A stretch of 64,000 nt of DNA, taken from a virus. The DNA lies in the IMG/VR virus record IMGVR_UViG_3300020056_002227, positions 105,743-169,742 of that record, one strand, 5' to 3'. Shown piece after piece: positions 4,843 to 48,167 of the stretch. The notes below the pieces were generated by a model that was not told the origin of the DNA, made no database searches, and saw only the letters and a list, made by a program, of their open reading frames with translations. Positions within the stretch are counted from its first letter, which is position 1. The number at the start of each line of letters is the position of its first letter. The position numbers were made by a program, and so were the translations under genes.

Positions 4843-7800
4843 ATTTAGATCCATTGGCTCCAAGACCATTACTCTTGGGCAGGGAATACCACAACAGTTT
4901 CCCATTCAATTAGATCCAGCCCCATTTGAGGGTGCCATTGTTTATGCAGATAATGGTACAATTAAACTCTCGAATGGTACGGCGTGGGTTGATGTTGGAG
5001 CAGGGCCTCAAGGTGTCCAAGGTTTTACAGGTACCCAAGGTGTCCAAGGTATCCAAGGTGAGTATGGGCCAGGATTTACAATCATCGGTTCGGTACCAGA
5101 TGTAGACGCAGGTGGTGATCCACAAGCAACTTTAAATGCAGCATTCCCCAGTCCAAATATAGGTGAAGGTGTCATCGATGATACCGACGACGAGCTTTGG
5201 ATTTGGGATGGTACCAATTGGATTAATATCGGTTCATTCCGTGGTGTTCAAGGTCTTCAAGGCACTCAGGGTGTTCAAGGTCTTCAAGGCACACTCGGAG
5301 AAAAAGGTATTCAAGGTACCCGTGGTTATAGAGGACCACAGGGAACCCAAGGTACTCAAGGTTTCCAAGGTGTTCAAGGCTTCCAAGGCAATCAGGGCAT
5401 ACAAGGTGTCCAAGGGCCTCAGGCCTCACAGGGTACCCAAGGTATTCAAGGTAATCAAGGACTTCAGGGTCTTCAAGGTGTTCAAGGACCGCAAGCTTCA
5501 CAAGGAACTCAAGGCTTCCAAGGCAATCAAGGGATGCAGGGTTTCAACGGTGATGATGCTGGATCGGTATATGAATATCGACTACTAAATTCTAATATTG
5601 AGGCTGACCCAGGTAGTGGTCAGATGATTTGGAATTTACCTAGCAACCCAACCGATACTTTCTCCACAACTACAAGAATTTGGATTGACGATGAAGCCTT
5701 CTATGGCGTAAACATGGAAGGAATTTATTCGGCAATCGCAGCAGCAGACTCTGTTAATAAAGCCTACATGAAGGTAACAAAGCGTGGGCAACCAGATGAT
5801 TATGTTGTATTTACTATTCAGGCAATTTCTGATAGTACCGGTTACTGGCAATTAGATGTAACATTTATAGCCGGTAATGCAATCAGAGAGAATTTCGTTG
5901 AAGAAACATCACCTGGTGTTTTTACTTCTTATCCTCTACTCGTAGATTTTTCTATCAGTGGTGATAAGGGAATTCAAGGTGATCAAGGCACCCAAGGTTT
6001 CCAAGGACTACAAGGACCTCAAGGTCCACAAGGAATGCAGGGAACACAAGGTGTTCAAGGTGTCCAAGGCCCACAAGGGCTTACCGGTAATCAAGGTACC
6101 GTTGGTGCTTACGGCGGTGTAACATTTAGATACGAGTATAATGCTCTCGATGTAACTAATACAGACCCCACACCCGGATTCTTAAAGGGTGATAATGCAA
6201 TATTAGGTAATGCTACTGAATTATACATTGACGTCACTGATGCTGATGGTGTTACCATTAGTGCAATGCTTGCAGATTTCTATGCGTCTTCAAATCCAAA
6301 TAGTAAGGGCTATTTGAAACTGGCAGATGCATCCAACGTCTATAATTATGCTCTCTTTGAGGTGACAGGTGGTAACCTTGTAGGTACTGCTGGAACTGGA
6401 TATCACGCAGTAGCAGTAAATAGTCTTGTTACAGGTCAAACCTATTCTAACGGTACAGATTTCCGAATCTCATTTATAAGAACTGGTGATCAAGGCATAC
6501 AGGGCAATCAAGGTACTCAGGGTATTCAAGGTTTCCAAGGTTCACAGGGTACTCAAGGCTTCCAAGGATCTCAAGGGACTCAGGGTATCCAAGGTGTTCA
6601 AGGACCACAAGGTCTTCAAGGTACTCAAGGTTTCCAAGGAACACAAGGCACACAGGGCATTCAAGGATTACAGGGTGTACAAGGTTCCGTTGGTGATTTC
6701 GGTGGCCTTACATTTGATTATACATTCGATTCTGCGACCACTGATGCAGATCCTGGTCAAGGTAATTTAAGGTTTGATAATGCTGCATTTGATTCAGCAA
6801 CTAAAATGTATATCGATGACCTCGATGATGCAGCTAATGATCTTTCTCCACTCTTCACGGAACTTGACATTAATGCAAGTGGTGTAAAAGGCCTGTTTAG
6901 AATTATTAATGCAGCCGATGTTACCGAGTTTGCTACATTCAATTATACAGAAATCACAGATTCTACCGGTTATCATACCTTTGATGTAGCCCACATTGCT
7001 GGTGTAACCTCGTTCACAAATGGCGCAGATATTAGAATTACATTTGTTCGAACTGGAGACCCAGGCCCTCAGGGTGCTCAAGGTTCTCAAGGACCTCAGG
7101 GTACCCAAGGTTTCCAAGGTGTTCAAGGGCTACAAGGTATCCAAGGTACACAGGGCATCCAAGGCACACAGGGCATCCAAGGTATGCAAGGTACCGTAGG
7201 AGATCACGGTGGACTTTCTTGGAATTATCTCTTTGATTCAAATACAAGTTCTGGATCGGCCCCAGTTGCAAATAGCTGGAAGATTGATAACTCCAATATA
7301 ACGCTTGCAACGAAGCTTGTCATCGATGATATTCCAGATGATGCATACAGCAACGAATTAGATGACTTCTTTACCTATCTTGGTGCAATACCCGGTTCTC
7401 CAAAGGGTCATATTCTTATTGAGAGCACAGCGGATAACGATGGACCTGCAGGTCATCACTTTGTTGTCTACGAGTTTACTGCATTTAACTGGGATAGTGC
7501 ATCTGAATTATACGGTATCTTTGATGTAAACTACATTGCATCAGGAGCTGTAACAAGTAATAACTGGAATAACGTAGAGTCCGATCACGGCCCAGATACA
7601 CTGGTTCACTTTATTCCGGCTGGACCACAAGGTACTCAGGGACCACAAGGTACTCAAGGATTTACTGGTATTCAAGGTGGTGCAGGTGCCTCCGGTGGTG
7701 TAACATTCGAATATGAGTTCGATACAGATACTGGCACTTCTCTCTTAGGTGCACCTGGATTATTGAAGTTCAACAATGCTTCTCTATCTTCAGCCACTGA

Positions 7801-32300: not shown

Positions 32301-33398
32301 GGCAGTGCTACCAATGTAGCATATATGGGTAGAGAAAATGGTAATGCGATCGCTTACTTCTATAACAGAGTATATGGTCGGATTTACTACGATATTGATG
32401 GTGGCTCGAGTTACTATGGTGATTTTGCAGGTACGACTCGAGTAAATCAGCTTACTCCAAACAGAATTAACTCACCATACGCTGGTGGAAACTCTGGTAT
32501 TACAAGAGCTAGTTCACCATACTCATTCGGCTTCCAAGAATCGGGTGGTTGGGGTAGCCCATTTCCTGACTTAGTACTCCAGTATCACACTGGTATATCT
32601 ATGGCAGCTAACCCAAGCTACCAAGGTATTAGATTCTTTAATGACTATAACAGTAGTGCTCTAAGATTCCAGATTAATGGTGGCTCTAGTTATACTTACA
32701 AATATACATGGATGTACACAAACCGAGATAGTGGTATGTACACCAGCGACTCTGACGGTAATGGTGCTCACATCTATCCTAACCGACAGACATCTTATGG
32801 TTCTTGGAACTTCTTAGGAAGCAGAAGTGGTTGGAGAGGTCTTGCATTCTCTGATTCAACATATAGACCTCACATAATGTTTGATGGTAGTTCGAGTGGT
32901 GGTTACTATATTCAGGATCTAGGACGTTGGGTATACTATCATAACCGCGCTAGGAACTGTACAGGCTTTGCTTCATCTTCAACAGTTTCCGGGTATCGTG
33001 TACGTATTAATGGTTCACTCTATTGTAACGGTAACGTTGTTGCTTACTCAGACAGACGTAAGAAAAAGAATATTGTTACTATTGATAATGCTCTTGATAA
33101 AGTATTACAATTACGTGGTGTATACTACGAAAGAATTGAAGATTTAGTTGATGACCGCGATGACCTCTATAAGGGCCGTCAGTTAGGTATGATTGCTCAA
33201 GAAGTAGAAGAAATTGTACCTGAGGTTGTATCATACGCAGAAGAAATTGATGAGTATGCACTTGACTATCCTAAGATGGTCGGTCTACTTGTCGAAGCTC
33301 ATAAGGATCAACAAGAGATTATAAATAGCCAACAAGAAAAGATTGACAAACTCGAAGAAATGGTATATAATATGATGCAAAAAATGGAGAACCTATAA
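23355..33398 (+). CDS. Giant tail fibre/adhesin with S74 chaperone domain, 3347 aa
   Basis: I place the start at ATG 23355 because GGGGAG lies about 10 nt upstream; an in-frame GTG at 23346 would abut that site. The N-terminal region has LTPQKAIIGSTTDNGVDELQ and the LDQLDSTQFVRSDESD motif shared with the previous fibre. The long shaft is built from many modules reading like F-x-D-x-D-N-x-x-Y-Y-x-D-P-x-x-T-S, followed by DDYIxHxGDxDTxIGF early on. Later modules are diverse and rich in Tyr, Asn, Gly, Ser and Trp, probably ligand-binding inserts. The end (from base 33048) is an S74 intramolecular chaperone: SDRRKKKN, LGMIAQEVEEIVPEVV, then a coiled coil of Q, E, K and I. At 10 kb this is the longest gene in the window and a likely main receptor-binding fibre. 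Confidence 0.85.
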   Translation: MANDKKFIAKNGLLTPQKAIIGSTTDNGVDELQVTGTSNLAGAVTIENATASTISLEVENTGAGGFTPTANIAKFTGDIDSLSIQNVIGGSYRITNPGNNNRIIFYNNTSGIDIQYAGSSRLAITSTGNDFSGLNTTTIDGNRIITVLDQASQGGSFDAATLDQLDSTQFVRSDESDTMNGSYIITGDLTVSGNTTFINTEQLLVADNIFTLNSDFTTGNPTEDAGMEIRRGGQANSSFVWDETNDYFKLISAGTDLGRIITTADEGPGNGFDADTVDGLHGYQFLRSDVDDTANGNITILGGLTVGDGNGPARIDMNGSGQARTIYTNNGEIGFLNSGYNWAVKSDANGDLEVERDVEAGRDVLADGDVTAQNNITATTGNITATAGSISAATTVTAGTDVIGQRFVDADDNAYYADPASNSIFSGLGLDDNLFHNGDTDTRLRFETDHIKLETGGNVRFDVNNSRVLASLDTYVPNLVVNDAIIHNNDTDTRILFTTDVVQIDTGGSTRLQVDNAGVDIFGNLDVTNTATANTVIGLTSMRSPIYYDTDNDSYFGNFAGTSVMNDISIDDYISHNGDADTYFGFVGPDQIRFATGNAQRLYISNSQIESSVYFYAPRFVDLDNNSYYVDPNSTSILSTVNVDDWLQHIGNEDTRIGFPATDTINIQTDGFTRFIANNSQVTVTTDLKVDGNIISGGDGIFDGDVYASKFIDSDDNNYYADPNATSVMKTVGIDDYIVHNGDSDTKIGFLMNDTLQMDAGGTTIFIAQSTAAEYYVDLYGEDAYFRTFYDNDNSAYFLNPAETGVSLNVAGLVRTGNGSAAGPAYSFGSDTNTGMYRKGADQIGFSAGGNEELVVYNNRVEAPGEVRSPIFYDLATPAYYGDFASTSQMNRIDIDDYIRHRGDTNTYMGFDAADSWGVWAGGTKRLGIDTDSADFTVDVYAPKFIDSDNNSYYLDPADTSTSATLNGKVLIGNVSDAARWDDNTGNGGISLMNHGSYASGQNTTVGISGNYAGGYSLMYLNRIDPNTNPFNAGNRYIHFYHDGNQGTNLSGDSSGNLYWLMLAGTSQSYWTQAGSTIFTINDNGNLVVGGSSPTYTDGGDNTPLTAAINPAKLHVNGSIYLNGANDGIIFGRGTASFLRDEELGFGWGGGWYMTDATYLRVRNNKAVYSGGDAYFNRYYDTNATSRWIEPGGGGILAGNFEFAATDTGTSYSTAAIELRESNYTGNGTATPPRISWHWGGVVASQMAIESSGRIVVRNNPGNGYEAFGAGNIYGTKFWDIDNNNFSFEPNVSNAWRLQTPTGYLDFGSMNASYLHFQTDRPAFYFNQPVSFDGNIAGYGGNETASFARYYDSNDTDYWVDPHTFSRMNGINFGIPGNGTNTKGRYLSIEGNTDGSGEGSSRIFFAEHNSTTGSMSAYGMSLGYRGGATSIVGGDGNTWTGLSQINNGEWGLWGHNGSAIGSWAMKGPRDGTYVVASGSFRAPIFYDWTSSSWYVNPDGDSRLNTITLDGNAVQLREPTGNYGSFMVDGGARGGYEGFSIGGRVVFMHNNASASGIYDDVNNQWMARFNLGSNVDLRYAGVVQAETANGYFLANNEIRSPIFRDTTSPTTWFVDPSGTSRVNTLRTNRIYPAYDNDTSIYIDYVGGDYGSLQINGGGKNGWRGLSLLGQFVWMTPGDGARNGIYNDIDNQWQQQWYRGAGSILYYAGGSQFSIENGYALATNQMRAPIYYPPSTTSYYLDLDRGNTNQALRVGGIIERVGFQTSGDGNNNIFNRAQDYSHWIWQTATDWGIFWAGNNNPYRSYFSTSNPNEIVFIGNGNLRASIDLDDGRAHFTGNVSAPDFLLNGGNEDISLNPAYGSGGADLVLFDMTPYFEARVTRVLRGAENNLTGTTSEYVKGDGPFAGSYVLQTSNYRTFYSDYIPVVPGEDLYGEISHRVVSGSGGRLYYGIERFDKDKRPIAGNTGTTYFVAGGSIYTNTTWQTQRAHTTLPTSHTPYNGSDGGGVHWVRIRILINYNSGGALRQIGGIMLKRRNVESNLLVDNIVANDILADDITADNVDAYRFRDRDATGYYVEPANITQSARFRGQTYYGPNATWGAYLTVGGDGRNGYINSGTASVATTNGNLHLDSGSGYNTYINYYDGSNIYFGTGGNATHSVWESNGDLRIGGSGSTAASGFKLHVDGNTYVNGNVRANRFEDTSSPSSRYVDPASTSQINRLNVNEIKSFPSPQYGQLFFDHSGIAYPSGRSQVVGTGLGIYSSYSGGSGNPFTYDITASFNNNGKAFEIAADWINTNRTPLLVRSLRDCCQNWTPWTQIATSGVEFLTGAGIKAPWFADSDNDFYRMDPASTSQINAMNMRGTLNMEFGAQINLRAPGTNNLRGYIQVRDSNDGHLRIATSGGEDIRFMDGGLDGQWNMIIRGDGNTLINNYIDATRFRDRNDPSNYYGDFASTSIMNQVDVNRIRSRNSTGYFWDGNEDLAMYVYGEISNSNYATGNLQPGALNIGRTDRNYRFTGDGGSWAGDIRAGILANCSEYWEFALHDSGRSVESLLYYDTANIHIGRNIGWGTSRVIHPGGTASTIYTDWTNTGYYLNPEGLNDSNINGVNNRTSAMMGMPGHTRNSGYYYRARPRQTSNTDYWTGAFGWGRIDMNQVATWGSGFIDSWSNPPNQPSGTSHWVGAQAFHYRNSNTSGYGWQMVGGPIEGLRFRSSWPSWRSWRNIVVGGVNDGSAAGTIYAPRFTNTTNTGYYGDFDTTSRMNVIDINEGYNYGWWRNRTSGRGLYSQANGRHFYSPGNVYWHIDGRSDVGGLIFYDRYNSSQGSGTGRRGYVYYDGSGFGLLHSGGGWAVRTVSGTTELYGNAYAGTFRANIIYDRDNGDGWYWNGGGTSRSNVTITNTSYFSSNTNRGYAEGYGTRGSALRRISYISMNNGSSAWNSYNYHGIASTNSSNNFADSISINSYNDITMRLDSNSNNTNSYLRIMDNTVGSATNVAYMGRENGNAIAYFYNRVYGRIYYDIDGGSSYYGDFAGTTRVNQLTPNRINSPYAGGNSGITRASSPYSFGFQESGGWGSPFPDLVLQYHTGISMAANPSYQGIRFFNDYNSSALRFQINGGSSYTYKYTWMYTNRDSGMYTSDSDGNGAHIYPNRQTSYGSWNFLGSRSGWRGLAFSDSTYRPHIMFDGSSSGGYYIQDLGRWVYYHNRARNCTGFASSSTVSGYRVRINGSLYCNGNVVAYSDRRKKKNIVTIDNALDKVLQLRGVYYERIEDLVDDRDDLYKGRQLGMIAQEVEEIVPEVVSYAEEIDEYALDYPKMVGLLVEAHKDQQEIINSQQEKIDKLEEMVYNMMQKMENL

Positions 33399-35733: not shown

Positions 35734-37038
35734 ATGAGTGAACAACGTCTTCGTGATTTGGTAACAGAATTAGGATTCGATCCCAAAAACACCACAAAAA
35801 TGTATCATCTTGCCAGGGAATATGATCGGCTAGAACAAGGAGCAATGGCAATTTCTCTTTATCTAAGAGCAGCAGATATTGAAGAAAATAATGTAGATTT
35901 ACAGTATCGTTGTATGGTCTATATGTCCGAATGTTATCATAGACAAGGAGATCGAAAAAACAGTGTTTTGGCATCACTGCAACACGCAGTCATGTTAGAT
36001 CCATCCCGGCCAGAAGCATATTGGTTGATGTGTAAGATATATGAAGAATTTGGTGATTGGAGAAATATGGGTATCTTTGCTGAGATAGGCCTCAAGGTTT
36101 CAACACCATCGGATGATCCTATCACGGATATAGGCTATCCTGGTAGATGGGTGTTCTATTACTATAAGGCCTACTCTGATTGGAAATGGAAGGGTGGTCA
36201 ACCTGCCAAGGAAATGCTATTTAATTTTAGATATCGCATGAAAAAAGGACCCTTCTACGCTCATAAGGCACTTGAATTACAAATGCGCGAAATAGGTGTT
36301 CCCGAATTCTTGTATTATAAGAAACAAGATTTTAAAAGAGCTCGATTTAAATTTCCTGGCTTAGAAAATGTAGAAAGAAACTATTCTTCCTCTTTACAAG
36401 ATCTATTCGTATTAACAGTATTAAATGGTAAGAAAAATGGATCTTATGTAGAGCTGGGTAGTGGTCACCCTCATGTAGGTAATAATACTGCTTTGCTAGA
36501 AGAAAAATTTGGGTGGCGAGGTATCTCCCTTGACAATAATCAGACTTTTGCTAGGGAATTCAGTGAAGAGAGAAAAAACTCTGTTTTATGTGCTGACAGT
36601 ACCGGAATAGATTATTCAGTTTTATTCAAACAGTTTTGTTTAGATGACCAAATTGATTATCTTCAGATTGATGTTGATGACGCAACATACGACACCCTTC
36701 TTAAAATACCATTTGATCAATACAAATTTGGTGTGATTACCATTGAGCATGACCATTATAGGTGGATAAAATTAGACCCAGAGGTAAGAAAAACAAGGCC
36801 AGATATAAGAGAGTTCAGTCGTAAATACCTGTCTGAAAAAGGCTATGTTCTACTTGTACCTGATGCTGGACTTGGACCTAGAAGCCCCTATGAAGACTGG
36901 TGGATACACCCGAGTCTAGTTGAATCTTGTGAACATCTCAAACCTCAAGACCCTGGTAAGAGTGTTAATTTTGTTTGGGAGTACTTGATGCATCACGATG
37001 AAGAATATCTTGACGACATTGAGGAGTTTCTGAATTGA
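35734..37038 (+). CDS. TPR protein with FkbM-like SAM methyltransferase domain, 434 aa
   Basis: Residues about 20-120 form TPR-like helical hairpins (YHLAREYDRLEQGAMAISLY, ASLQHAVMLDPSRPEAYWLM), a protein-interaction module. The C-terminal half carries a Rossmann methyltransferase: motif I YVELGSGHP (238-246), the acidic strand end ISLDNNQTF (264-272) and DYLQIDVDD (308-316). This layout resembles FkbM-type O-methyltransferases, which often act on sugars. It is preceded 4 nt earlier by the propeller gene, and its stop overlaps the next start by four bases, so the three genes form one operon. The likely role is methylation of a glycan made or remodelled by the cassette; the substrate is unknown. 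Confidence 0.65.
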   Translation: MSEQRLRDLVTELGFDPKNTTKMYHLAREYDRLEQGAMAISLYLRAADIEENNVDLQYRCMVYMSECYHRQGDRKNSVLASLQHAVMLDPSRPEAYWLMCKIYEEFGDWRNMGIFAEIGLKVSTPSDDPITDIGYPGRWVFYYYKAYSDWKWKGGQPAKEMLFNFRYRMKKGPFYAHKALELQMREIGVPEFLYYKKQDFKRARFKFPGLENVERNYSSSLQDLFVLTVLNGKKNGSYVELGSGHPHVGNNTALLEEKFGWRGISLDNNQTFAREFSEERKNSVLCADSTGIDYSVLFKQFCLDDQIDYLQIDVDDATYDTLLKIPFDQYKFGVITIEHDHYRWIKLDPEVRKTRPDIREFSRKYLSEKGYVLLVPDAGLGPRSPYEDWWIHPSLVESCEHLKPQDPGKSVNFVWEYLMHHDEEYLDDIEEFLN

Positions 37039-37817
37039 AAAGAATTCAGAAAGTGGTAATAGCAACTGGTGGTTTCGATCCAATTCACAGTGGTCATATA
37101 CGATATTTAAATAATGCAAGACTTTTGGGTGATGTGCTAATAGTAGGTTTGAATTCGGATTCTTGGTTACAAAGAAAGAAGGGAAAGGAATTCATGCCGA
37201 TCGAAGAGAGATCAGCAATAGTCAGTAATTTAAAATGTGTAGACGATGTAATCACTTTTGATGATTCTGATAATAGCGCAAAAGATGCAATTACTCAAGT
37301 AAGAAACCGATACCCTAAAGCTCACCTAATCTTTGCTAACGGGGGAGACCGTACCTCAACTAATATACCAGAGAAGTCATTAAATATTTCTGGTTCAATC
37401 GAATTTTATTTTGGTGTCGGTGGTAATGATAAGGCAAATAGTTCAAGCTGGATTTTATCGAGTTGGGGTGATTGGAAAGACGAGAAGTGGCCACGAGCAT
37501 GGGGACATTACAGAGTTCTCTATGAGGTGGACAGTAAAACAAAGGTCAAGGAACTAACTGTCTACCCTGGCCGAAAATTAAGCCTTCAGAAACATTTTCA
37601 TCGTCATGAATATTGGATGTGTATAGAAGGTTCAGCAACCGTATATACAGGCTATGAACCATCGAATTTAAAAATGAAACAACTTGACGCTCACGAAGAA
37701 ATCACTATACCCCTTGGTTATTGGCATAGACTTGAAAACAACACAGACGAAAACGTAAAGATAATAGAGATACAATACGGCACAGAATGTGTTGAGAGTG
37801 ATATTACTCGATTATAA
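37035..37817 (+). CDS. Nucleotidyltransferase fused to mannose-6-phosphate isomerase-type cupin, 260 aa
   Basis: The start is TTG at 37035, chosen because GAGGAG lies 8 nt upstream and it overlaps the previous stop. Residues 1-143 are a cytidylyl/adenylyltransferase of the HldE C-terminal or TagD kind, with GGFDPIHSGHIRYL (HxGH at 18-21), ERSAIVSNLKCVDDV and SSSWILSSW. Residues 154-260 match the type II phosphomannose isomerase cupin found at the end of ManC-like enzymes: RAWGHYRVL, PGRKLSLQKHFHRHEYW (metal ligands H187, H189 and E192 likely), IPLGYWHRLEN and EIQYGTE. Usually these are separate enzymes or occur in other fusions. It could link sugar isomerisation and nucleotide activation. Third gene of the glycan cassette. 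Confidence 0.75.
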   Translation: MKRIQKVVIATGGFDPIHSGHIRYLNNARLLGDVLIVGLNSDSWLQRKKGKEFMPIEERSAIVSNLKCVDDVITFDDSDNSAKDAITQVRNRYPKAHLIFANGGDRTSTNIPEKSLNISGSIEFYFGVGGNDKANSSSWILSSWGDWKDEKWPRAWGHYRVLYEVDSKTKVKELTVYPGRKLSLQKHFHRHEYWMCIEGSATVYTGYEPSNLKMKQLDAHEEITIPLGYWHRLENNTDENVKIIEIQYGTECVESDITRL

Positions 37818-37828: not shown

Positions 37829-37856
37829 GCTAATAGTCCAAGGAGACGAAGATGGC
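37829..37856 (+). repeat. 28-bp direct repeat, copy 1 (leader and start of adhesin gene)
   Basis: Identical to 40480-40507. It covers the ribosome-binding site AAGGAG and the ATG plus the first bases of the gene. The two genes behind the copies are paralogues, so the repeat marks a duplicated 5' end. Confidence 0.9.
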
Positions 37857-38763
37857 TATCGAAATCGGTGAAATAGAAGTAATCAGTAACGGTCGTGCCC
37901 TTGTAGATATTCAAGGCGCTAATGGAAAGTACGATAATTTTCAGCCTAATGTAACTGATCTGACCGGTACTCAAATCAACTTCAATAATCCATTCAATAA
38001 TGTTACCCTCTCAGCAAACAGAACTTTTACTTTCTTTGCACTTGGGGCTGGGAAAACAACAATCGTAAATATAGACACTAGTGCTGATTTATACACGCCG
38101 ATATTTAATTTTGAATCTACTACCTTTCAGTGGCAATCTGATGCTGAACCAGATTGGGCTACTCGTAGATATTGGACTGTTGCACTAGTATGCTGGAGTG
38201 GAACAGTTGTTCGAGCCTCGGCAACCGGTTATGACGTCCAAGAAGGTGGTTCTACTAGTCCTGGTGCTCCAGAAATAATTGATCTTGGCAACGGGCTGCG
38301 AACGGCACCAACTGGTATTAATCCAGAATCCGCGGGTTTAGCCAGAGCAGGATTTTCATTCCTATCTAACGGCGAACTTAAGATGAATAATGTAGAAGGA
38401 GAATTGTCTTCTGGTAATATATTTACTCAAACAGCAGGAGCTCCAAGCCGTTGGTGTAGTGTAACTCCCACACAAACTTATTATATCAGAGCAACAATCC
38501 TTCAAAATTCCACTCATCCCGATGGCACTCTTGGTTTTGCCCAGGGCACTAGCTTAGATAATACATCTACCCTAGGCCAACTTGGCCCATGGTATTCATT
38601 AGCCGAAAATCGCACCTGGTGTATCGAAGAGACTGATGCTGGATCCCTTCTGGAGGACACTGAGCTTCGAATGAGAATAGAGATAGCATCGGATGACAAT
38701 GAAGATAGTATTCTTGCATCTAATGAATTTTTAATGATATGTAATTTGCAGGCGAATGATTAA
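37852..38763 (+). CDS. Adhesin-array protein A, 303 aa
   Basis: Residues 1-130 are the array's shared N-terminal module: VISNGRALVDIQGANGKYDN, an NVTLSANRTFTF strand, and PDWATRRYWTVALVCWSG followed by VVRASATGYD. The same order appears in the genes at 38778, 40503 and 40892. Residues 140-303 are a distinct beta-rich module beginning EIIDLGNGLRTAPTGINPES and ending LASNEFLMICNLQAND, not seen in the other copies. No signal or enzyme motif is visible. The leader repeat and late promoter lie directly upstream. It is probably a virion surface or fibre-tip protein, a possible receptor-binding variant. Function is inferred only from context. Confidence 0.6.
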   Translation: MAIEIGEIEVISNGRALVDIQGANGKYDNFQPNVTDLTGTQINFNNPFNNVTLSANRTFTFFALGAGKTTIVNIDTSADLYTPIFNFESTTFQWQSDAEPDWATRRYWTVALVCWSGTVVRASATGYDVQEGGSTSPGAPEIIDLGNGLRTAPTGINPESAGLARAGFSFLSNGELKMNNVEGELSSGNIFTQTAGAPSRWCSVTPTQTYYIRATILQNSTHPDGTLGFAQGTSLDNTSTLGQLGPWYSLAENRTWCIEETDAGSLLEDTELRMRIEIASDDNEDSILASNEFLMICNLQAND

Positions 38764-38777
38764 AAGGTTTAGTATCT

Positions 38778-39863
38778 ATGGCACATGAAATAGGAACAGA
38801 TGTTGTAATAGATAATAATCGTCGGCTGCAAAATATCACTGGAGCTGATGGGGTTTATTCTGATCTTTCGCCTACTGTAACCCAAATTACAAATACAATC
38901 AATTTTGATTTTCCGGTAATGTCTTGTGACATGACAGAAAATCTTACCTTCACCGCTACAAATATACCAACATCAGCAGACGATACCAGAATTTCGATGT
39001 TATTATTGAATAGGTCGGCTGATCTTCACACATTAAGTTTTGCAAACGTTAGTGGTGGAATTATTTGGACTACTGATAATGGACAAGAACCAACTTGGAG
39101 TGATTACCAATATTGGCAAGTGGTATTTACTGCATCTTCCGATAGAATTACTGCGGCCGCAGGAGGTTTCGGTGATGTGAGTGGTGGTGGTGGCGGTACG
39201 GCAGAAATGTCTACCAATATTAGTGTACCGAATGAATGGCTTAATAGATTAACACAAATCGAAGATACTGGATTTGGAACCACCCCCACAGCTTTCGTTG
39301 CAATTAGGTTTTTGCACGAACCGAATGATAATCGAATTGCAATTAGATGGACAGGGGGCCGAAGTACCGACACCATCCCCCAAAGTACGAATATAACAAC
39401 ATATGTAAATTATTCTGGTATCACTAACATTACAGCTCTTGATATTCAATATAATGTAGAAATTCAGGGCATTACCACCGGTGACAGCCTAACATTTAAC
39501 TGCACCCCAGCAGACCCATCTACTTTACAAACGGGTGACTTGCGAACGACTGGAATTCACGATTCTGGTGTAGATTATAATCTACTTGGTAGCACCGCGG
39601 GGGTTTATCTCTTGTGGCAAGGACAAGGTAGATCGCGCGATATCAATAACAATATACCAGGTACTCTGGGTTATTCTTACGCGGGTTTTCCGAGCCCACT
39701 TGATCCAAATTTCGCACCACATTTAAAAATTACTATGGTATGTGATCAGGGGACTTTTGTTGCAACTGGTTCAATGCCTATTACCGGCTCAGGTGTTAGC
39801 ATACCTGACGCTTTAAGTATATACCAGGCTGGAGATGGTACGGGCACGGGGGGATTTAATTAA
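38778..39863 (+). CDS. Adhesin-array protein B, 361 aa
   Basis: This starts 14 nt after protein A, behind AAAAGG. The shared N-terminal module covers residues 1-135 (VVIDNNRRLQNITGADGVYS, MTENLTFTATN, PTWSDYQYWQVVFTASSDRI). A Gly-rich linker follows, then a C-terminal module with FVAIRFLHEPNDNRIAIRW and YVNYSGITNITALDIQYNVE. That second module recurs at the end of the Calx-beta-like protein at 42428 (ITFQIDHEPSNNRIKIE, YVDYTGLSNITSLDVKYNVS), showing domain exchange across the array. There is no enzyme motif. The stop overlaps the next ATG by one base. Likely a structural or adhesive protein. Confidence 0.6.
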   Translation: MAHEIGTDVVIDNNRRLQNITGADGVYSDLSPTVTQITNTINFDFPVMSCDMTENLTFTATNIPTSADDTRISMLLLNRSADLHTLSFANVSGGIIWTTDNGQEPTWSDYQYWQVVFTASSDRITAAAGGFGDVSGGGGGTAEMSTNISVPNEWLNRLTQIEDTGFGTTPTAFVAIRFLHEPNDNRIAIRWTGGRSTDTIPQSTNITTYVNYSGITNITALDIQYNVEIQGITTGDSLTFNCTPADPSTLQTGDLRTTGIHDSGVDYNLLGSTAGVYLLWQGQGRSRDINNNIPGTLGYSYAGFPSPLDPNFAPHLKITMVCDQGTFVATGSMPITGSGVSIPDALSIYQAGDGTGTGGFN

Positions 39864-40462
39864 TGAGCTTAAATCATACACATTTAATTTTAGCAGGAGT
39901 GATGAGCCCCGGTCCAGTAGCCGCACCTCTTGATCCTATACCTACTAGTGGTTCGGGTGTAAGTATTCTTGCAAGGCAGGCTGCAGCCGGATTGACTGCA
40001 AAGGTAAGAGAGGATGCTGAAGACAGCGGTGTTGTTTCTTCATCTTCTAGTATTGCTTTACAAGTTTTTCATGTGTTTGGTGATATATTTCAAGTAAGAG
40101 TTCAAGGTCTTAGTGGTAGACAAAATACCGGTTTCTCTGCATGGTATAATCCGGCTGGTGATCCACAGACTTTACCTTTTACTCCTTCTACCGGACAAAC
40201 AATATACACAAATAATGTAAGACCGAATGCAGTTCAATTTGTACAGGATGGTGATGCAGGATCATGGTTAGATTTATCAACGGTCGGTTCTAGCCAAGAG
40301 GTGACCGTGGGTGCAAGTGTTTCTATAACAGGTGGTGCTGATATCCAGGAAGATGTCGATACGAGAGATATACAAATTTGGCTAAGATCTGACGGATATG
40401 CAGATACTCATCTAGTAACATTTAAAATACAGGCATATGCCTGGGCTCGAGCCTATAGTTAA
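39863..40462 (+). CDS. Adhesin-array protein C, 199 aa
   Basis: TAATG links this gene to protein B, so it is translationally coupled. It lacks the array's N-terminal module. Its C-terminus, DTRDIQIWLRSDGYADTHLV followed by TFKIQAYAWARAYS, resembles residues just ahead of the Hint domain in the 40892 gene (NPTFEFYIRASGYHDALAAT and so on), so it is a free-standing copy of that beta module. The first 60 residues are small and polar. It could be a partner domain that completes protein B or a separate fibre tip. No enzyme motif is seen. Confidence 0.55.
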   Translation: MSLNHTHLILAGVMSPGPVAAPLDPIPTSGSGVSILARQAAAGLTAKVREDAEDSGVVSSSSSIALQVFHVFGDIFQVRVQGLSGRQNTGFSAWYNPAGDPQTLPFTPSTGQTIYTNNVRPNAVQFVQDGDAGSWLDLSTVGSSQEVTVGASVSITGGADIQEDVDTRDIQIWLRSDGYADTHLVTFKIQAYAWARAYS

Positions 40463-40479: not shown

Positions 40480-40507
40480 GCTAATAGTCCAAGGAGACGA
40501 AGATGGC
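40480..40507 (+). repeat. 28-bp direct repeat, copy 2
   Basis: Identical to 37829-37856 and placed the same way relative to the ATG (40503), including AAGGAG. The identity ends shortly after the start codon although the proteins remain alike. Confidence 0.9.
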
Positions 40508-40880
40508 AATTAAAGTAGCTTCAACCACAGTCATAGATAACTCGCGGGTATTGACAAACCTTGTCGGAGCATCTGGTAATTACACATCATTTTACCCTAC
40601 AGTCACGGCAGTCAGTAGCGTATTAAATTTCACAAAGCCGGTGATGACACTTACCATGACTTCTAACGTAACTTTTTCTGAAAGTAATAAAGGTCAAGGT
40701 AGGAATTCTATTCTACTGCTTGATAGAAATACAAGTGGTTACACCCCTTCCTTTTCTGCTAACGTAAACTGGGCTGAAGATACTGAACCAACTTGGTCTG
40801 ATCACAGATATTGGCACATTTCTATGTGGTGCTGGAGTAATACTGTCGTGAGAGCGGCAGCAGTTGGCTACGATAATTAA
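40503..40880 (+). CDS. Adhesin-array protein D (single module), 125 aa
   Basis: This gene consists only of the shared module: TTVIDNSRVLTNLVGASGNY, LTMTSNVTFSESNKGQGRNS, PTWSDHRYWHISMWCWSN and a final VVRAAAVGYDN. It stops exactly where protein A changes to its private domain, so it is either a minimal version or a copy that lost its C-terminal module. The GTG of the Hint-domain gene follows 11 nt later. Small beta-rich virion-type protein; function unknown. Confidence 0.6.
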   Translation: MAIKVASTTVIDNSRVLTNLVGASGNYTSFYPTVTAVSSVLNFTKPVMTLTMTSNVTFSESNKGQGRNSILLLDRNTSGYTPSFSANVNWAEDTEPTWSDHRYWHISMWCWSNTVVRAAAVGYDN

Positions 40881-40891
40881 GGTATAGTGCA

Positions 40892-42418
40892 GTGAGCGAG
40901 ATTAAAGTAGCAAACACCAGAGTCGTAGGTAGATATTTTACCTCACCATATCTGGAAAGTATTACCGATACCACCAATAGTACATACGGCGTATCAACTA
41001 ATGAGGCCTGGCCGAATTCTCTGACTATTACAGGAGGCGGTGGTACTAATGGTGTCATAGCCTTAAGTTTTTCCTATGGGGGAGTAGCAACGGGGCGCAA
41101 GCCAGAACATCTAACTTGGCTTGCCGAAGACACAACATTTTATTTTATTAATGGTACACAGGGTGCTATTGCTCACATTTTAATCGATAGAATGTCTCAA
41201 GACGCAAGCCCTTCCTTAAAAAATCTTACATTTTCTTCTTCCGAAACCAATGCAATGAATATTTATTGGGATCGTAGCACAGAACCCGATTGGAGTAATT
41301 GGAGATATTGGCACGTATCTGGTATTTGTCTTGACTCTACAAAGATTAGATGTTCTGCTGTTCCATTTGATTCCCAAGCATTAACATATCCTGCTGGAAC
41401 ATTTTATGGTCGCTCTAGTGTCTCCGGAGCCACAACCAGTACCGGAGATGTAGCTTACATTAGAGCAGATGAAACAGTTGGTAACGGAGGCTTCGCATCC
41501 GCGGTGGCAAGTGGTAAGTTTGTAATTAATACGCCGTCGGGGCAATCACATCCAGTTTATATAAGAGTATATAGAGAAACGGGCACAAATGTCACAACCG
41601 CTACTTTCTATAATACATCAGGGACCGGGAGCACACTTAACACATCAACGAATCCTAATGTAGCATGGGGAGGCCCTACTGGTATTACACCTACTGCATA
41701 TAGAGTAAAACAGGTTGGTGGTGGTACAGATACGGGATATATCACAGCAAATGCTGGTGGATTGAATGTTGCTTTTTCTGCCAGTGCGGATGTTGGTGGT
41801 GTGGGTACTGATAGCGATACTCAGAATCCAACATTTGAATTTTATATAAGGGCATCTGGCTATCATGATGCTCTTGCTGCAACATTCTCTGCTACAGCAT
41901 ATGCTACTGCTGAATCTACTTGTTTCATAGGAACCTCTTTACTTACAATGGTTGATGAATCCGGTAATTTCCTAGAGAAGATAGCTCTAGAGGATGGTTA
42001 TACAACGTATCATGCAGATACAACCATTCCCCGATACGTCAAGGGCCAGGATGGTGTTGTAAATAGGATCTTAGATTTTAGACAGCACGAAGGTCATGGA
42101 ACTCTTCATGGATTTAATGGCTCTGATAATTTTGTAACTGGAGCACATCCATTTTTGACCACCGATGGTTGGAAGGCATTTGATGGAGAAATAGCTCGAT
42201 CTATGCATCCAAATTTAAGTATTACGAACTTAGAGGTTGGAGATATTCTTATAAAGTACAATTCTGATACCGGAGAATATTATGAGGAAGAACTAACGTC
42301 TGTAACGTCAGAGAGAAGGCTTTGTATTGTTTACTCTTTGGATGTTACAGGCCCAGATTCAGACACCGATGGTAATGACACATATATCGTCGATGATTAT
42401 GTTGTACACAATAAGTAA
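40892..42418 (+). CDS. Adhesin-array protein E with C-terminal Hint (intein-like) domain, 508 aa
   Basis: The start is GTG at 40892, with AAGG about 9 nt upstream. Residues 1-165 are a diverged shared module (PDWSNWRYWHVSGICLDSTK). Residues 175-343 are a beta module related to protein C. At C344 a Hint domain begins: CFIGTSLLTMVDESG (block A), then NFVTGAHPFLTTDGW with the TxxH block (T416, H419), NLEVGDILIKYN, LCIVYSLDV, and a C-terminal YIVDDYVVHN. It ends His-Asn-Lys, so the catalytic Cys, TxxH and HN of protein splicing elements are all present. There is no downstream extein and the +1 residue is Lys, not Cys, Ser or Thr. In bacterial intein-like proteins this layout gives self-cleavage rather than splicing. 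There is no homing endonuclease insert. Probable self-processing virion adhesin. Confidence 0.75.
   Translation: MSEIKVANTRVVGRYFTSPYLESITDTTNSTYGVSTNEAWPNSLTITGGGGTNGVIALSFSYGGVATGRKPEHLTWLAEDTTFYFINGTQGAIAHILIDRMSQDASPSLKNLTFSSSETNAMNIYWDRSTEPDWSNWRYWHVSGICLDSTKIRCSAVPFDSQALTYPAGTFYGRSSVSGATTSTGDVAYIRADETVGNGGFASAVASGKFVINTPSGQSHPVYIRVYRETGTNVTTATFYNTSGTGSTLNTSTNPNVAWGGPTGITPTAYRVKQVGGGTDTGYITANAGGLNVAFSASADVGGVGTDSDTQNPTFEFYIRASGYHDALAATFSATAYATAESTCFIGTSLLTMVDESGNFLEKIALEDGYTTYHADTTIPRYVKGQDGVVNRILDFRQHEGHGTLHGFNGSDNFVTGAHPFLTTDGWKAFDGEIARSMHPNLSITNLEVGDILIKYNSDTGEYYEEELTSVTSERRLCIVYSLDVTGPDSDTDGNDTYIVDDYVVHNK
41921..42415 (+). other. Hint/intein-like domain coding segment
   Basis: Codes residues 344-508. 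It starts at the invariant Cys and ends HN plus one Lys. At about 165 residues it has the size of a mini-intein or bacterial intein-like (BIL) domain. Confidence 0.75.
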
Positions 42419-42427
42419 GGAATTATA

Positions 42428-45121
42428 ATGCCATTACCCCATTCTGGTTTACATTTAACTTACGGTAATAATTATAACTATACCGGTGGTAGTGGCCCCG
42501 TGTCACCACCCGCACCGGATACAGGTGCTATTTCTTCAATAACGCCTTCTACCACAACGGTCAATGAAGGCAACTCTGTTACATTTACCGTAGCAACATC
42601 TAATATTTCTGATGGTACCTCTATCAGTTGGGAGGTTGTGGTTGGAGGTAATGCATACCCTGCTGCAACAATTACTCCAAATAATGATTTTAGTACTGCT
42701 ACTTCTGGTACTACAACTGTTACAAGTAACTCTGCACAATTTACAGTAGGTGCCGCGGCTGATTTAACGACAGAAGGGTTTGAACAATTTCGTGTTCGTG
42801 TCACATATTCAGGTACCGGATCTACTGTTACATCATCATATATCACGATCAATGACACCTCACAGACGCCGGCAACACCAACTATTATTAGTGTTACGCC
42901 CCAGGGAGGTGCAACGTCAACTGTAGAAGGAAACACGAGAACTTTTGATGTTGTAACCTCTGCTATTCCTGATAGCACTTCACTTAACTGGGCAGTTAAT
43001 CATATAGGCACAACATCGGCAGATTTTACGACAAGCTTCGGTACAGTTACGATTACTTCAAATAGTGGCTCGTTTAATGTTCCAATTGCTTCAGACGCAA
43101 CAAATGAAGGAACAGAAGAATATACAATTACTGTTTCGGGTACAGTCAGTGCAACAGCTGTTTCTAAAACGACTGGATCTCAATACATTGTTGATGCTTC
43201 TTCACCGAGAATCGATGGATTGAGTGTTTCTTCATCATCAGTCGAAGAGGGGACTAATCTTAATGTTATCGTAGATACACTCGACTATCCAGACGGTAAT
43301 AAAGTATTCAACTGGGCCGTTTCGCACGTAAGTACAATTGCACAAGATTTTGATACTACAAGCAGCACAGTGACAGTTAACACCTCGTCTGGTTCGGGCA
43401 CAGGAAACTTTAATGTTCCTATTAGAGCAGATACTGTTGCGAATGAAGGTAGTGAAACGTTTAGAGTTACTGTAACAGATCCGGTTACTCCTAGCATTAA
43501 CGCACAGACTATTTTAGTTACGATCGTTGATAAAACACCAAGAATTGTAAGTGTTACAGGCCCCACCACTATTACAGAGGCAGGAACGGGTAACTACTTT
43601 ACATATAACGTTACAACGGAGAATATTCCTAACGGCACCACTCTCGATTGGGATGTGAATCATGGCACTACGGTCGTGGGTGATTTTGGTGGTAATGGGC
43701 AGTTTGGAACATTTACAGTTAATAATAATGCTGGATCTTTTCAAATTGATATAGACCAGGATGAAACCACAGAAGGCGATGAAACGTTTACTCTCACAGC
43801 ATCTGGTACTGTAGCACATCCGAATGATGGATCGGTAAATGTTTCTGTAAGTGCTACTACGGGCACAATTACTATCACAGATACCTCCACAGAGCCATCT
43901 ATTAGTATTTCGAGTACACCGACTCAAGCTAATGAAACAAATTTGAATTCGAGGACTTGGACGATTACCACCGCTGGATTCGATGAGGGAGACACCCTTA
44001 ATTGGATAATCAATCATGGTAGTACATCTGCGGCCGACTTTTCAGCAAGTTCAGGGACCACTTCAGCAATAAGTGGTGGTTCTTGTACAATGACAATTGT
44101 TGTTGATGAAGATTTTACCACAGAAGGTGATGAGACATTTACATTTACGGTATCCGGCACATCGTCTGGTGGCGCATCGGTAAGTGAAACTTCTCATACT
44201 GTTACGATATTCGATACGTCTCAAACACCTTCTATCAGCTCTGTTTCTGGTCCTAGTAGTATTGACGAAGGATCATCTGGTGATTTTGATATTACTTGTG
44301 TTAATGTTCCCAATGGCACTTCTTTGACTTGGCAGATCCAAACCACGAGTGGCACCGCACCACCACTTACTGGATCTGGGCTGGCTGCCGATGATTTTAA
44401 TAGTGCAACTGTATCTGGTACTGTTACGGTAAACAACAATACCGCGACAGTTACTGTTTACCCGTATGCCGATGCAACAACTGAAGGAGCTGAAGTCTTC
44501 AAATTGTTTGTGTATGGTACTGCAGGACCAAATAGTACATCAATAAATGGGACCTCTGGTAATTGCACGATTAACGATACATCACAGCCTACCGCAAGTA
44601 TGGACTCTTCTTTTTCTATTACTGGCGGCTTTCAGAGCGAATCCGGATCTGCCGGTTTTGTTGAAGCTTATATAACCTTTCAAATTGATCATGAGCCTAG
44701 TAATAACAGAATAAAAATTGAATCACATAGAGGTGGATCACAAACACAGGCTATTATTATTACTGATTACGTTGATTACACCGGTTTAAGTAATATTACG
44801 TCTCTTGATGTTAAATATAATGTTTCCTCACATTCTTGTATTGGAACGTGTTACTCGGGAGGGGCATTTGGACCTTTGCCTACTAACGATGGATTTTCAA
44901 CAAATACTTACTATAGTGTTCCGACTACCCCCGGCGCGCGGGAATTTGGATGGATGGCCAAGGCCAATCCTAATTTAGGTAATAATAGTACAGCCGTCGA
45001 TGCAAGTGATGTTGAATTAACAATAAGACTTATAGATTCAGTGGGCGGTACATTTACGGCAACGTCCAATTCGGTGGATATAGATCTTAACGCAAGTGTT
45101 GGCTCCTCCCCACAGGTTTAG
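42428..45121 (+). CDS. Adhesin-array protein F with six Calx-beta-like repeats, 897 aa
   Basis: After a short N-terminus (residues 1-34) come six domains at about 35-148, 152-258, 261-369, 371-488, 490-598 and 600-720. Each starts with a V-N-E-G / I-D-E-G type strand and ends with an acidic TTEGDETF-like loop followed by FxxTVSGT. This pattern is characteristic of Calx-beta-like immunoglobulin folds, which often bind calcium through those acidic loops. Residues 722-897 are the module shared with protein B. There is no signal peptide or transmembrane span. Such extended repeats act as stalks in adhesins. Here it is most likely a virion appendage. AAGGA precedes the ATG, 9 nt after the Hint gene. 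Confidence 0.7.
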   Translation: MPLPHSGLHLTYGNNYNYTGGSGPVSPPAPDTGAISSITPSTTTVNEGNSVTFTVATSNISDGTSISWEVVVGGNAYPAATITPNNDFSTATSGTTTVTSNSAQFTVGAAADLTTEGFEQFRVRVTYSGTGSTVTSSYITINDTSQTPATPTIISVTPQGGATSTVEGNTRTFDVVTSAIPDSTSLNWAVNHIGTTSADFTTSFGTVTITSNSGSFNVPIASDATNEGTEEYTITVSGTVSATAVSKTTGSQYIVDASSPRIDGLSVSSSSVEEGTNLNVIVDTLDYPDGNKVFNWAVSHVSTIAQDFDTTSSTVTVNTSSGSGTGNFNVPIRADTVANEGSETFRVTVTDPVTPSINAQTILVTIVDKTPRIVSVTGPTTITEAGTGNYFTYNVTTENIPNGTTLDWDVNHGTTVVGDFGGNGQFGTFTVNNNAGSFQIDIDQDETTEGDETFTLTASGTVAHPNDGSVNVSVSATTGTITITDTSTEPSISISSTPTQANETNLNSRTWTITTAGFDEGDTLNWIINHGSTSAADFSASSGTTSAISGGSCTMTIVVDEDFTTEGDETFTFTVSGTSSGGASVSETSHTVTIFDTSQTPSISSVSGPSSIDEGSSGDFDITCVNVPNGTSLTWQIQTTSGTAPPLTGSGLAADDFNSATVSGTVTVNNNTATVTVYPYADATTEGAEVFKLFVYGTAGPNSTSINGTSGNCTINDTSQPTASMDSSFSITGGFQSESGSAGFVEAYITFQIDHEPSNNRIKIESHRGGSQTQAIIITDYVDYTGLSNITSLDVKYNVSSHSCIGTCYSGGAFGPLPTNDGFSTNTYYSVPTTPGAREFGWMAKANPNLGNNSTAVDASDVELTIRLIDSVGGTFTATSNSVDIDLNASVGSSPQV

Positions 45122-47732: not shown

Positions 47733-48167
47733 ATGAAAATAGGTTTTACTTGTTCTACATTTGATCTACTGCATGCAGGTCACATACAAATGTTACGGGA
47801 TGCTAAATCTCAATGTGATTATCTGATATGTGGCCTCCAGGTTGATCCTTCACTAGATAGACTGGAAAAGAACGCACCAATTCAGACATTGGTTGAAAGG
47901 TATACACAGCTGAAATCCGTGCAATATGTGGACGAAATTATTCCTTATGAAACTGAATTGGATCTGAAAGACATACTTGAAATGTACCACATTGATGTTC
48001 GTATTCTTGGTGATGAATATCGTAATTTAGAATTCACTGGCAAAGAAATATGTCAAAGCAGAAATATCGAATTATTCTTTAATAAAAGAGATCATCGGTT
48101 TTCTACTAGCGATCTAAGAAAAAGAGTCTGCCAGAAGGAGATAAGAGAAAATGCCAAAGAAAGATAA
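47733..48167 (+). CDS. Cytidylyltransferase-like nucleotidyltransferase, 144 aa
   Basis: A compact single-domain enzyme of the glycerol-3-phosphate cytidylyltransferase (TagD) kind: GFTCSTFDLLHAGHIQML with HxGH at residues 14-17, KSVQYVDEIIPY, ILGDEYRN, and the C-terminal STSDLRKRV that completes the nucleotide site. It would join CTP or ATP to a phospho-alcohol or sugar phosphate in the cytosol. It lies between gp15 and gp16 in an otherwise fixed block, a location I recall for such genes in marine T4-like phages. It is related to the N-terminal half of the fusion at 37035. It overlaps gp16 by 17 nt; GGAG precedes the ATG. Substrate unknown. Confidence 0.8.
   Translation: MKIGFTCSTFDLLHAGHIQMLRDAKSQCDYLICGLQVDPSLDRLEKNAPIQTLVERYTQLKSVQYVDEIIPYETELDLKDILEMYHIDVRILGDEYRNLEFTGKEICQSRNIELFFNKRDHRFSTSDLRKRVCQKEIRENAKER

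Follow-up and report, generated by a model that had tools for sequence, protein, structure and literature searches.

A predicted C-terminal Hint module on phage tail proteins, a candidate for self-removal, related to A-type bacterial intein-like domains

What might a Hint domain do at the very end of a phage structural protein, with a single residue beyond its terminal His-Asn pair? The question is raised by an open reading frame in a 64,000-nucleotide stretch of DNA (hereafter the window) taken from the 169,742-base record of an uncultured virus, which is a marine T4-like virus of bacteria. The frame at 40892–42418 begins with GTG, comprises 508 codons and ends with TAA at 42416–42418. An earlier note, made from the letters alone, had placed a Hint domain at the C-terminus of the product, where H506-N507-K508 is followed by the stop; this position was confirmed, and the coordinates it gave for the domain and the residue numbers it gave for C344, H419 and N507 proved exact. 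The analysis reported here indicates that the last 165 residues are probably a Hint domain with its catalytic residues intact, of the A-type bacterial intein-like (BIL) kind, serving as a detachable C-terminal processing module that removes itself. The features concerned are listed in Table 1.

Table 1. Features of the Hint-bearing gene and of adjacent paralogues, in window coordinates
Feature	Position	Strand	Basis
Hint-bearing gene, 508-aa precursor (N1 and N2 modules, then C-terminal Hint)	40892..42418	+	ORF, translation
N1 module, residues ~1-162	40892..41377	+	Family HMM; also alone or N-terminal in neighbour genes
N2 module, residues ~163-343, expected C-terminal part of released product	41378..41920	+	HMM matches to Hint-less paralogues
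Predicted scissile junction Thr343 / Cys344	41918..41923	+	Cys invariant 38/38; -1 residue unconstrained
Predicted Hint domain, A-type BIL-like, residues 344-508	41921..42415	+	Profile vs PDB; AlphaFold; Foldseek to BIL2, inteins and Hedgehog
Block A nucleophile Cys344 (CFIGTSLLTM)	41921..41923	+	32/32 in alignment, 38/38 distinct domains
Block B T416-G-A-H419 (TxxH)	42137..42148	+	His 32/32; Thr/Ser 31/32
G426-W427-K428 adjoining block B	42167..42175	+	Invariant 32/32
Block F VYSLDV(TG)...GNDTYIV; Ser482 at usual intein Asp position	42329..42391	+	N or S 27/32, Asp 0/32
Block G His506-Asn507	42407..42412	+	32/32 aligned, 38/38 distinct domains
+1 Lys508, the entire C-extein, and stop codon	42413..42418	+	Lys 37/38, Arg 1/38
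N1-only paralogue, adjoining gene	40503..40880	+	BLASTP E 6e-14
Hint-less N2 paralogue, C-terminus at Hint boundary	39863..40462	+	BLASTP; HMM E 6.5e-22

Searched as a single sequence, the window protein had no hit in Pfam, PHROG or NCBIfam. Routine annotation would therefore overlook the Hint domain, and a family of homologues was built for this reason. Scans of IMG/VR yielded relatives at 73%, 58%, ca. 46–48% and ca. 40% identity, down to ca. 30%. The resulting family holds 38 distinct complete phage domains in 15 clusters at 50% identity, of which 32, with a mean identity of ca. 40%, make up the alignment and profile. Compared with the PDB, the 32-sequence profile matched best the BIL domain of Clostridium thermocellum (2lwy, E 1.3e-8), nearly equalled by the DnaB intein 1mi8 (E 3.8e-8), and also matched Tetrahymena BIL2 (6y75/6tmm, E ca. 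5e-8). An AlphaFold model of the domain (pLDDT 93.3, pTM 0.88) was closest in Foldseek to Tetrahymena BIL2 (E 5.5e-8), and further fold matches in the PDB included the Mtu RecA intein, DnaB inteins, 2lwy and Hedgehog 1at0 (E 3.2e-4); there were 30 such matches at E≤0.001, and every one inspected was a Hint structure. Relatives L036, L050, L058, L061, L063 and L005 pass the cut-offs of Pfam Hint-family models (e.g. Hom_end_hint, PT-HINT, Vint). By profile and predicted structure, residues 344–508 are a Hint domain with the horseshoe Hint fold, which backs the identity first proposed, and the domain is only 165 residues long and free of any insert, in agreement with the earlier note that it carries no endonuclease. 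Its nearest kind is probably the A-type BIL domain, as it has no endonuclease, no Cys, Ser or Thr at +1 and no Hedgehog lipid-binding region. No second Hint domain was found in the window's own virus record. Searches by tblastn of cultured phages with the window Hint, the 343-residue upstream part and relatives L026 and L005 gave no match; a first scan of genome contigs (query A3) gave no relative, and a second (query A6) found relatives in bacterial MAGs.

The alignment of 32 sequences has only 13 invariant columns, C344, H419, H506 and N507 among them, and both Cys1 and His-Asn are kept in all 38 distinct phage homologues. The catalytic residues earlier read as intact are all retained in homologues at 73%, 58%, ca. 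48% and ca. 40% identity. In block F, the position of Ser482 is N in BIL 2lwy and D in the DnaB intein. Since the search for loci used short peptides conserved around GWK and GNDTY, the invariance of these two motifs comes partly from the selection of loci, whereas that of Cys1, HN and the final Lys does not. Judged on these alignments, the Hint match is more than chance. Selection on the Hint domain is purifying: pairwise dN/dS lies at ca. 0.04–0.34, with synonymous sites saturated in the more distant pairs. It is below that of the upstream part in most pairs (for example 0.14 versus 0.45 in L029/L040, and 0.07 versus 0.20 in L043/L041), and the Hint domain is under no stronger constraint than the upstream part in L052/L053, L055/L054, L043/L048 and L040/L037. 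With invariant catalytic residues and these dN/dS values the domain bears no sign of decay; it looks active, with residues that appear competent. One further phage protein (L013:2863–4245) ends in YIVHNK after a Cys-containing stretch, seems to have no TxxH and matches no Pfam model; its end is possibly a degenerate Hint or a chance likeness.

The part ahead of the domain had been called an adhesin, a role that stays putative, as residues 1–343 find no match among known families or cultured phages. This part consists of two modules, N1 and N2; in the full-length AlphaFold model residues 1–70 are too poor for reading the N-terminal modules. The N1 family HMM matches the window at 40503–40880, 37852–38763 and 38778–39863, and relatives over the full length are L003 (55%), L021 (48%), L024, L027, L026, L017 and L029. 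Comparison of N2 proteins with and without Hint located the boundary. In Hint-less N2 proteins from the same clusters the stop lies 2–7 residues past the end of the N2 profile (2 residues in the paralogue at 39863–40462), and in those with Hint the Cys lies 0–2 residues past it. Cleavage before Cys344 would accordingly give a product ending much as the Hint-less paralogues do. One phage contig carries two different Hint-bearing N2 proteins near each other (L026:4398–5492 and 5905–7305). In the stretches compared of Sinorhizobium phage phiM12 and others, the nearest phages by terminase, no N1, N2 or Hint was found.

The gene belongs to a group of small modular genes that precedes the gp13 (head-tail adaptor), gp14-like, gp15-like and terminase gp17 genes. 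T4-like phages keep fibre and baseplate genes at this place, and in the related Rhizobium phage RHph_I1_18 the genes found there are named structural and tail fibre proteins. A place in the virion, like the name adhesin, is inferred from this setting among tail genes, directly ahead of gp13-gp14-gp15-gp17, and from the shared modules, and the product is a probable tail-fibre protein. A long fibre of ca. 3360 residues in the same window carries Peptidase_S74 at its C-terminus (33048–33230, plus strand, ORF ending at 33395, E 8.8e-15); PF13884 matches this fibre and gave no match to the Hint protein. The gene downstream (42428–45121) encodes 897 residues of repeated beta-sandwich-like units with sub-threshold similarity to Calx-beta. 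Also among the tail genes, at 35734–37817 and 47733–48167, are an FkbM-like methyltransferase with TPR, a cytidylyltransferase fused to a cupin of the mannose-6-phosphate-isomerase type, and a second cytidylyltransferase, which together suggest possible phage-encoded glycan modification.

The predicted Hint module is carried by several virion or tail protein families that are unrelated to one another. Its carriers include N1-N2 proteins of T4-like phages (the window, L003, L017, L021, L024, L026, L027 and L029, among others), collagen-like repeat proteins (L005, L007), gpI-like tail assembly proteins of phrog_32 (L043, L054), a phrog_10938 virion structural protein (L034/L036), a Phage-tail_3 protein (L060) and DUF4815 proteins (L061, L063). 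The recurrence of one module on unrelated tail proteins suggests a little-studied way to trim or chemically activate virion proteins. L048 and L051 have nearly identical Hint domains (pS 0.02) and diverged upstream parts (pS 0.41), which points to exchange of the module by recombination. In the DUF4815 virion proteins the domain occurs in tandem: five copies in L061 (4494–7067), with the end of the last one degenerate, and two in L063 (4548–5471). These proteins are 2355 and 2434 residues long, respectively, and HNK|C and HNR|C junctions join their Hint domains directly.

Autocleavage at C344 is the best-supported outcome predicted from these sequences, and it gains support from the Hint-less paralogues that end at the same boundary. 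After folding, Cys344 would take over the peptide bond of Thr343 in an N-S acyl shift helped by H419, forming a thioester, as the chemistry of the family suggests. Water, or a small or protein amine, would then resolve the thioester and release residues 1–343, a step with which the boundary agrees. The released product would be a fibre or baseplate protein made of N1 and N2, with a new C-terminus matching the one found in the genome's own Hint-less paralogues. Cyclisation of Asn507 may free Lys508. By analogy with the S74 intramolecular chaperone, removal might take place during or after assembly, although both its timing and its role are speculation. The invariance of Cys1 and HN, the Hint fold, purifying selection, the recurrence on unrelated tail proteins and the boundary all argue for such self-removal, and the S74-bearing fibre of the same window offers a parallel. 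The lack of a +1 nucleophile and of the block F Asp points the same way, as both are BIL-like; BIL domains lack the +1 nucleophile and mainly yield cleaved products (PMC7664689, PMC7765530). Against it, N-terminal cleavage by simple hydrolysis leaves the retained terminal His-Asn and the near-invariant +1 Lys unexplained, and the few pairs in which the Hint domain is not the more constrained part also count on this side. Hedgehog proteins do without a terminal His-Asn. More ambitiously, and as a tentative proposal of modest probability, the module may belong to a widespread system of phage tail-protein modification, in which Hint would turn the fibre C-terminus into a thioester that is ligated to its own +1 Lys, to a virion subunit or to a host-surface amine, so that parts of the virion are capped or linked covalently with no need for ATP.

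Among the alternatives to self-removal, the one that fares best, unlikely as it is, has residues 1–343 transferred to an amine of another virion subunit or of a host surface group, with a peptide or isopeptide link as in Tetrahymena BIL2 and its ubiquitin-like domains. The closest structural match is reported to make isopeptide bonds (PMC8616854), and there is no +1 Cys, Ser or Thr to capture the thioester internally. However, neither an acceptor protein nor a conserved acceptor lysine was identified, no conserved recognition extension follows the Hint domain, and the likeness to BIL2 is one of fold, at ca. 16% identity.

Next in order, and improbable as well, is splicing onto a single residue, in which the side-chain amine of Lys508, or its alpha-amine after cyclisation of Asn507, would attack the thioester to give residues 1–343 plus one lysine. 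The conservation of the residue after His-Asn speaks for it. This residue is Lys in 37 of the 38 distinct domains and Arg in the remaining one, with Lys in 14 of the 15 clusters, and more distant relatives from bacterial MAGs have S, T, V or N there and, in one case, K. A stop codon directly follows HNK in 35 of 41 distinct C-terminal halves, the others being internal copies in the DUF4815 proteins L061 and L063 (L062 is a partial second record of the L063 type). Because these internal copies also have Lys or Arg at +1, the notion that Lys is mere stop-codon context is weakened. If the lysine acceptor were built in, the conservation of HN and that of Lys would both be accounted for, and BIL ligation without a nucleophilic side chain has reportedly been described (Dassa 2004 and Aranko 2013, as cited in PMC7765530 and PMC7664689). 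Against this, the Lys could serve folding, the positioning of Asn or protection from C-terminal degradation. Readthrough into the downstream gene was considered and rejected: the window, L003 and L017 have a frame in common with that gene, but L019 does not, and readthrough would still leave Lys at +1. Inteins need Cys, Ser or Thr at +1. Two of the MAG relatives, from Gracilibacteria and Pacebacteria (L074:3218–4444 and L075:2–979), end in HN-SGAHQE and HN-TELKP; with a C-terminal Hint, a tail of 5–6 residues and Ser or Thr at +1, they are potentially splicing.

Still less probable is a reading in which the domain is never cleaved and its Hint fold is retained for structure or binding. Replacement of the block F Asp by Ser or Asn would fit it, as would the weak candidate relative L013 with its HNK end and apparent lack of TxxH; yet residues that are required for the chemistry and otherwise dispensable, the terminal HN included, are strictly kept (38 of 38). 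A decayed intein left as a selfish remnant at the gene end is scarcely credible: the fold and blocks A, B, F and G are intein-like and many phages carry true inteins, for instance in terminase, but there is no endonuclease, no C-extein and no conserved insertion site, and the domain is under purifying selection and recurs at the C-termini of unrelated tail proteins. Two established classes were also rejected. A classical (class 1) intein is at odds with the absence of a C-extein (HN-K-stop), of a +1 Cys, Ser or Thr and of the block F Asp (0 of 32), and Hedgehog-like lipid attachment with a protein that ends one residue after the Hint domain and has no extension past it.

The BIL-like chemistry proposed for self-removal is already known. 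What is new here is the conservation of Cys1, HN and +1 Lys across phage homologues, the module on unrelated tail proteins, the match with the Hint-less boundary and the purifying selection; in the open-access literature, only inteins in phage enzymes were found, and no work on tail proteins that end in a Hint module. BIL domains would gain a concrete context, with Hint-bearing and Hint-less versions of one module in one gene cluster, and the near-invariant Lys after His-Asn stands out as a specific unexplained feature. Like the A-type BIL domains described by Amitai, Dassa and Pietrokovski (solved example: 2lwy), the phage module has Cys1, TxxH, Asn or Ser instead of Asp in block F and a terminal HN, with neither a +1 nucleophile nor an endonuclease. 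The reviewed examples occur in non-conserved bacterial proteins, within hypervariable regions, and have flanking sequence on either side; the phage module ends a probable tail protein, its HN is followed by one conserved Lys, and its GWK is invariant. Class 1 mini-inteins (Ssp/Npu DnaB, Mtu RecA) share the fold and blocks A, B and G; unlike them, the phage module has no C-extein, no +1 Cys, Ser or Thr, no block F Asp and no insertion into a conserved enzyme. The C-terminal (Hog) domain of Hedgehog is alike in its autoprocessing position at the C-terminus and in fold (1at0), but the phage Hint has no sterol-binding extension and keeps the terminal HN that is missing from Hog. Among viral structures, the best matches (E 2.7e-10) were proteins of uncultured Caudovirales in BFVD called 'Hint domain containing protein' (e.g. 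A0A6J5KSY2), and others were named collagen-repeat or fibronectin III proteins, all BFVD names being automatic only; the open-access literature yielded no paper on how these proteins are processed. Tetrahymena BIL2, from the BUBL polyubiquitin locus (6tmm, 6y75), is the closest in fold and sets a precedent for thioester transfer to lysine: it is reported to form K(epsilon-NH2)-C-terminus isopeptide bonds and to dispense ubl4 onto other proteins (PMC8616854). It differs in sequence (16% identity) and in being flanked by ubiquitin-like domains, the phage module having no downstream acceptor domain; were the phage thioester captured by an amine, the module would be a natural covalent-attachment device in virions. 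Peptidase_S74, an autocleavable chaperone domain (compare PMC4728585), is likewise a self-removed C-terminal module on phage fibres, including the long fibre of this window, and is unrelated in fold and chemistry. If active, the Hint module would be a chemically distinct, self-contained means of tail and fibre maturation on several unrelated virion families, parallel to S74 self-cleavage.
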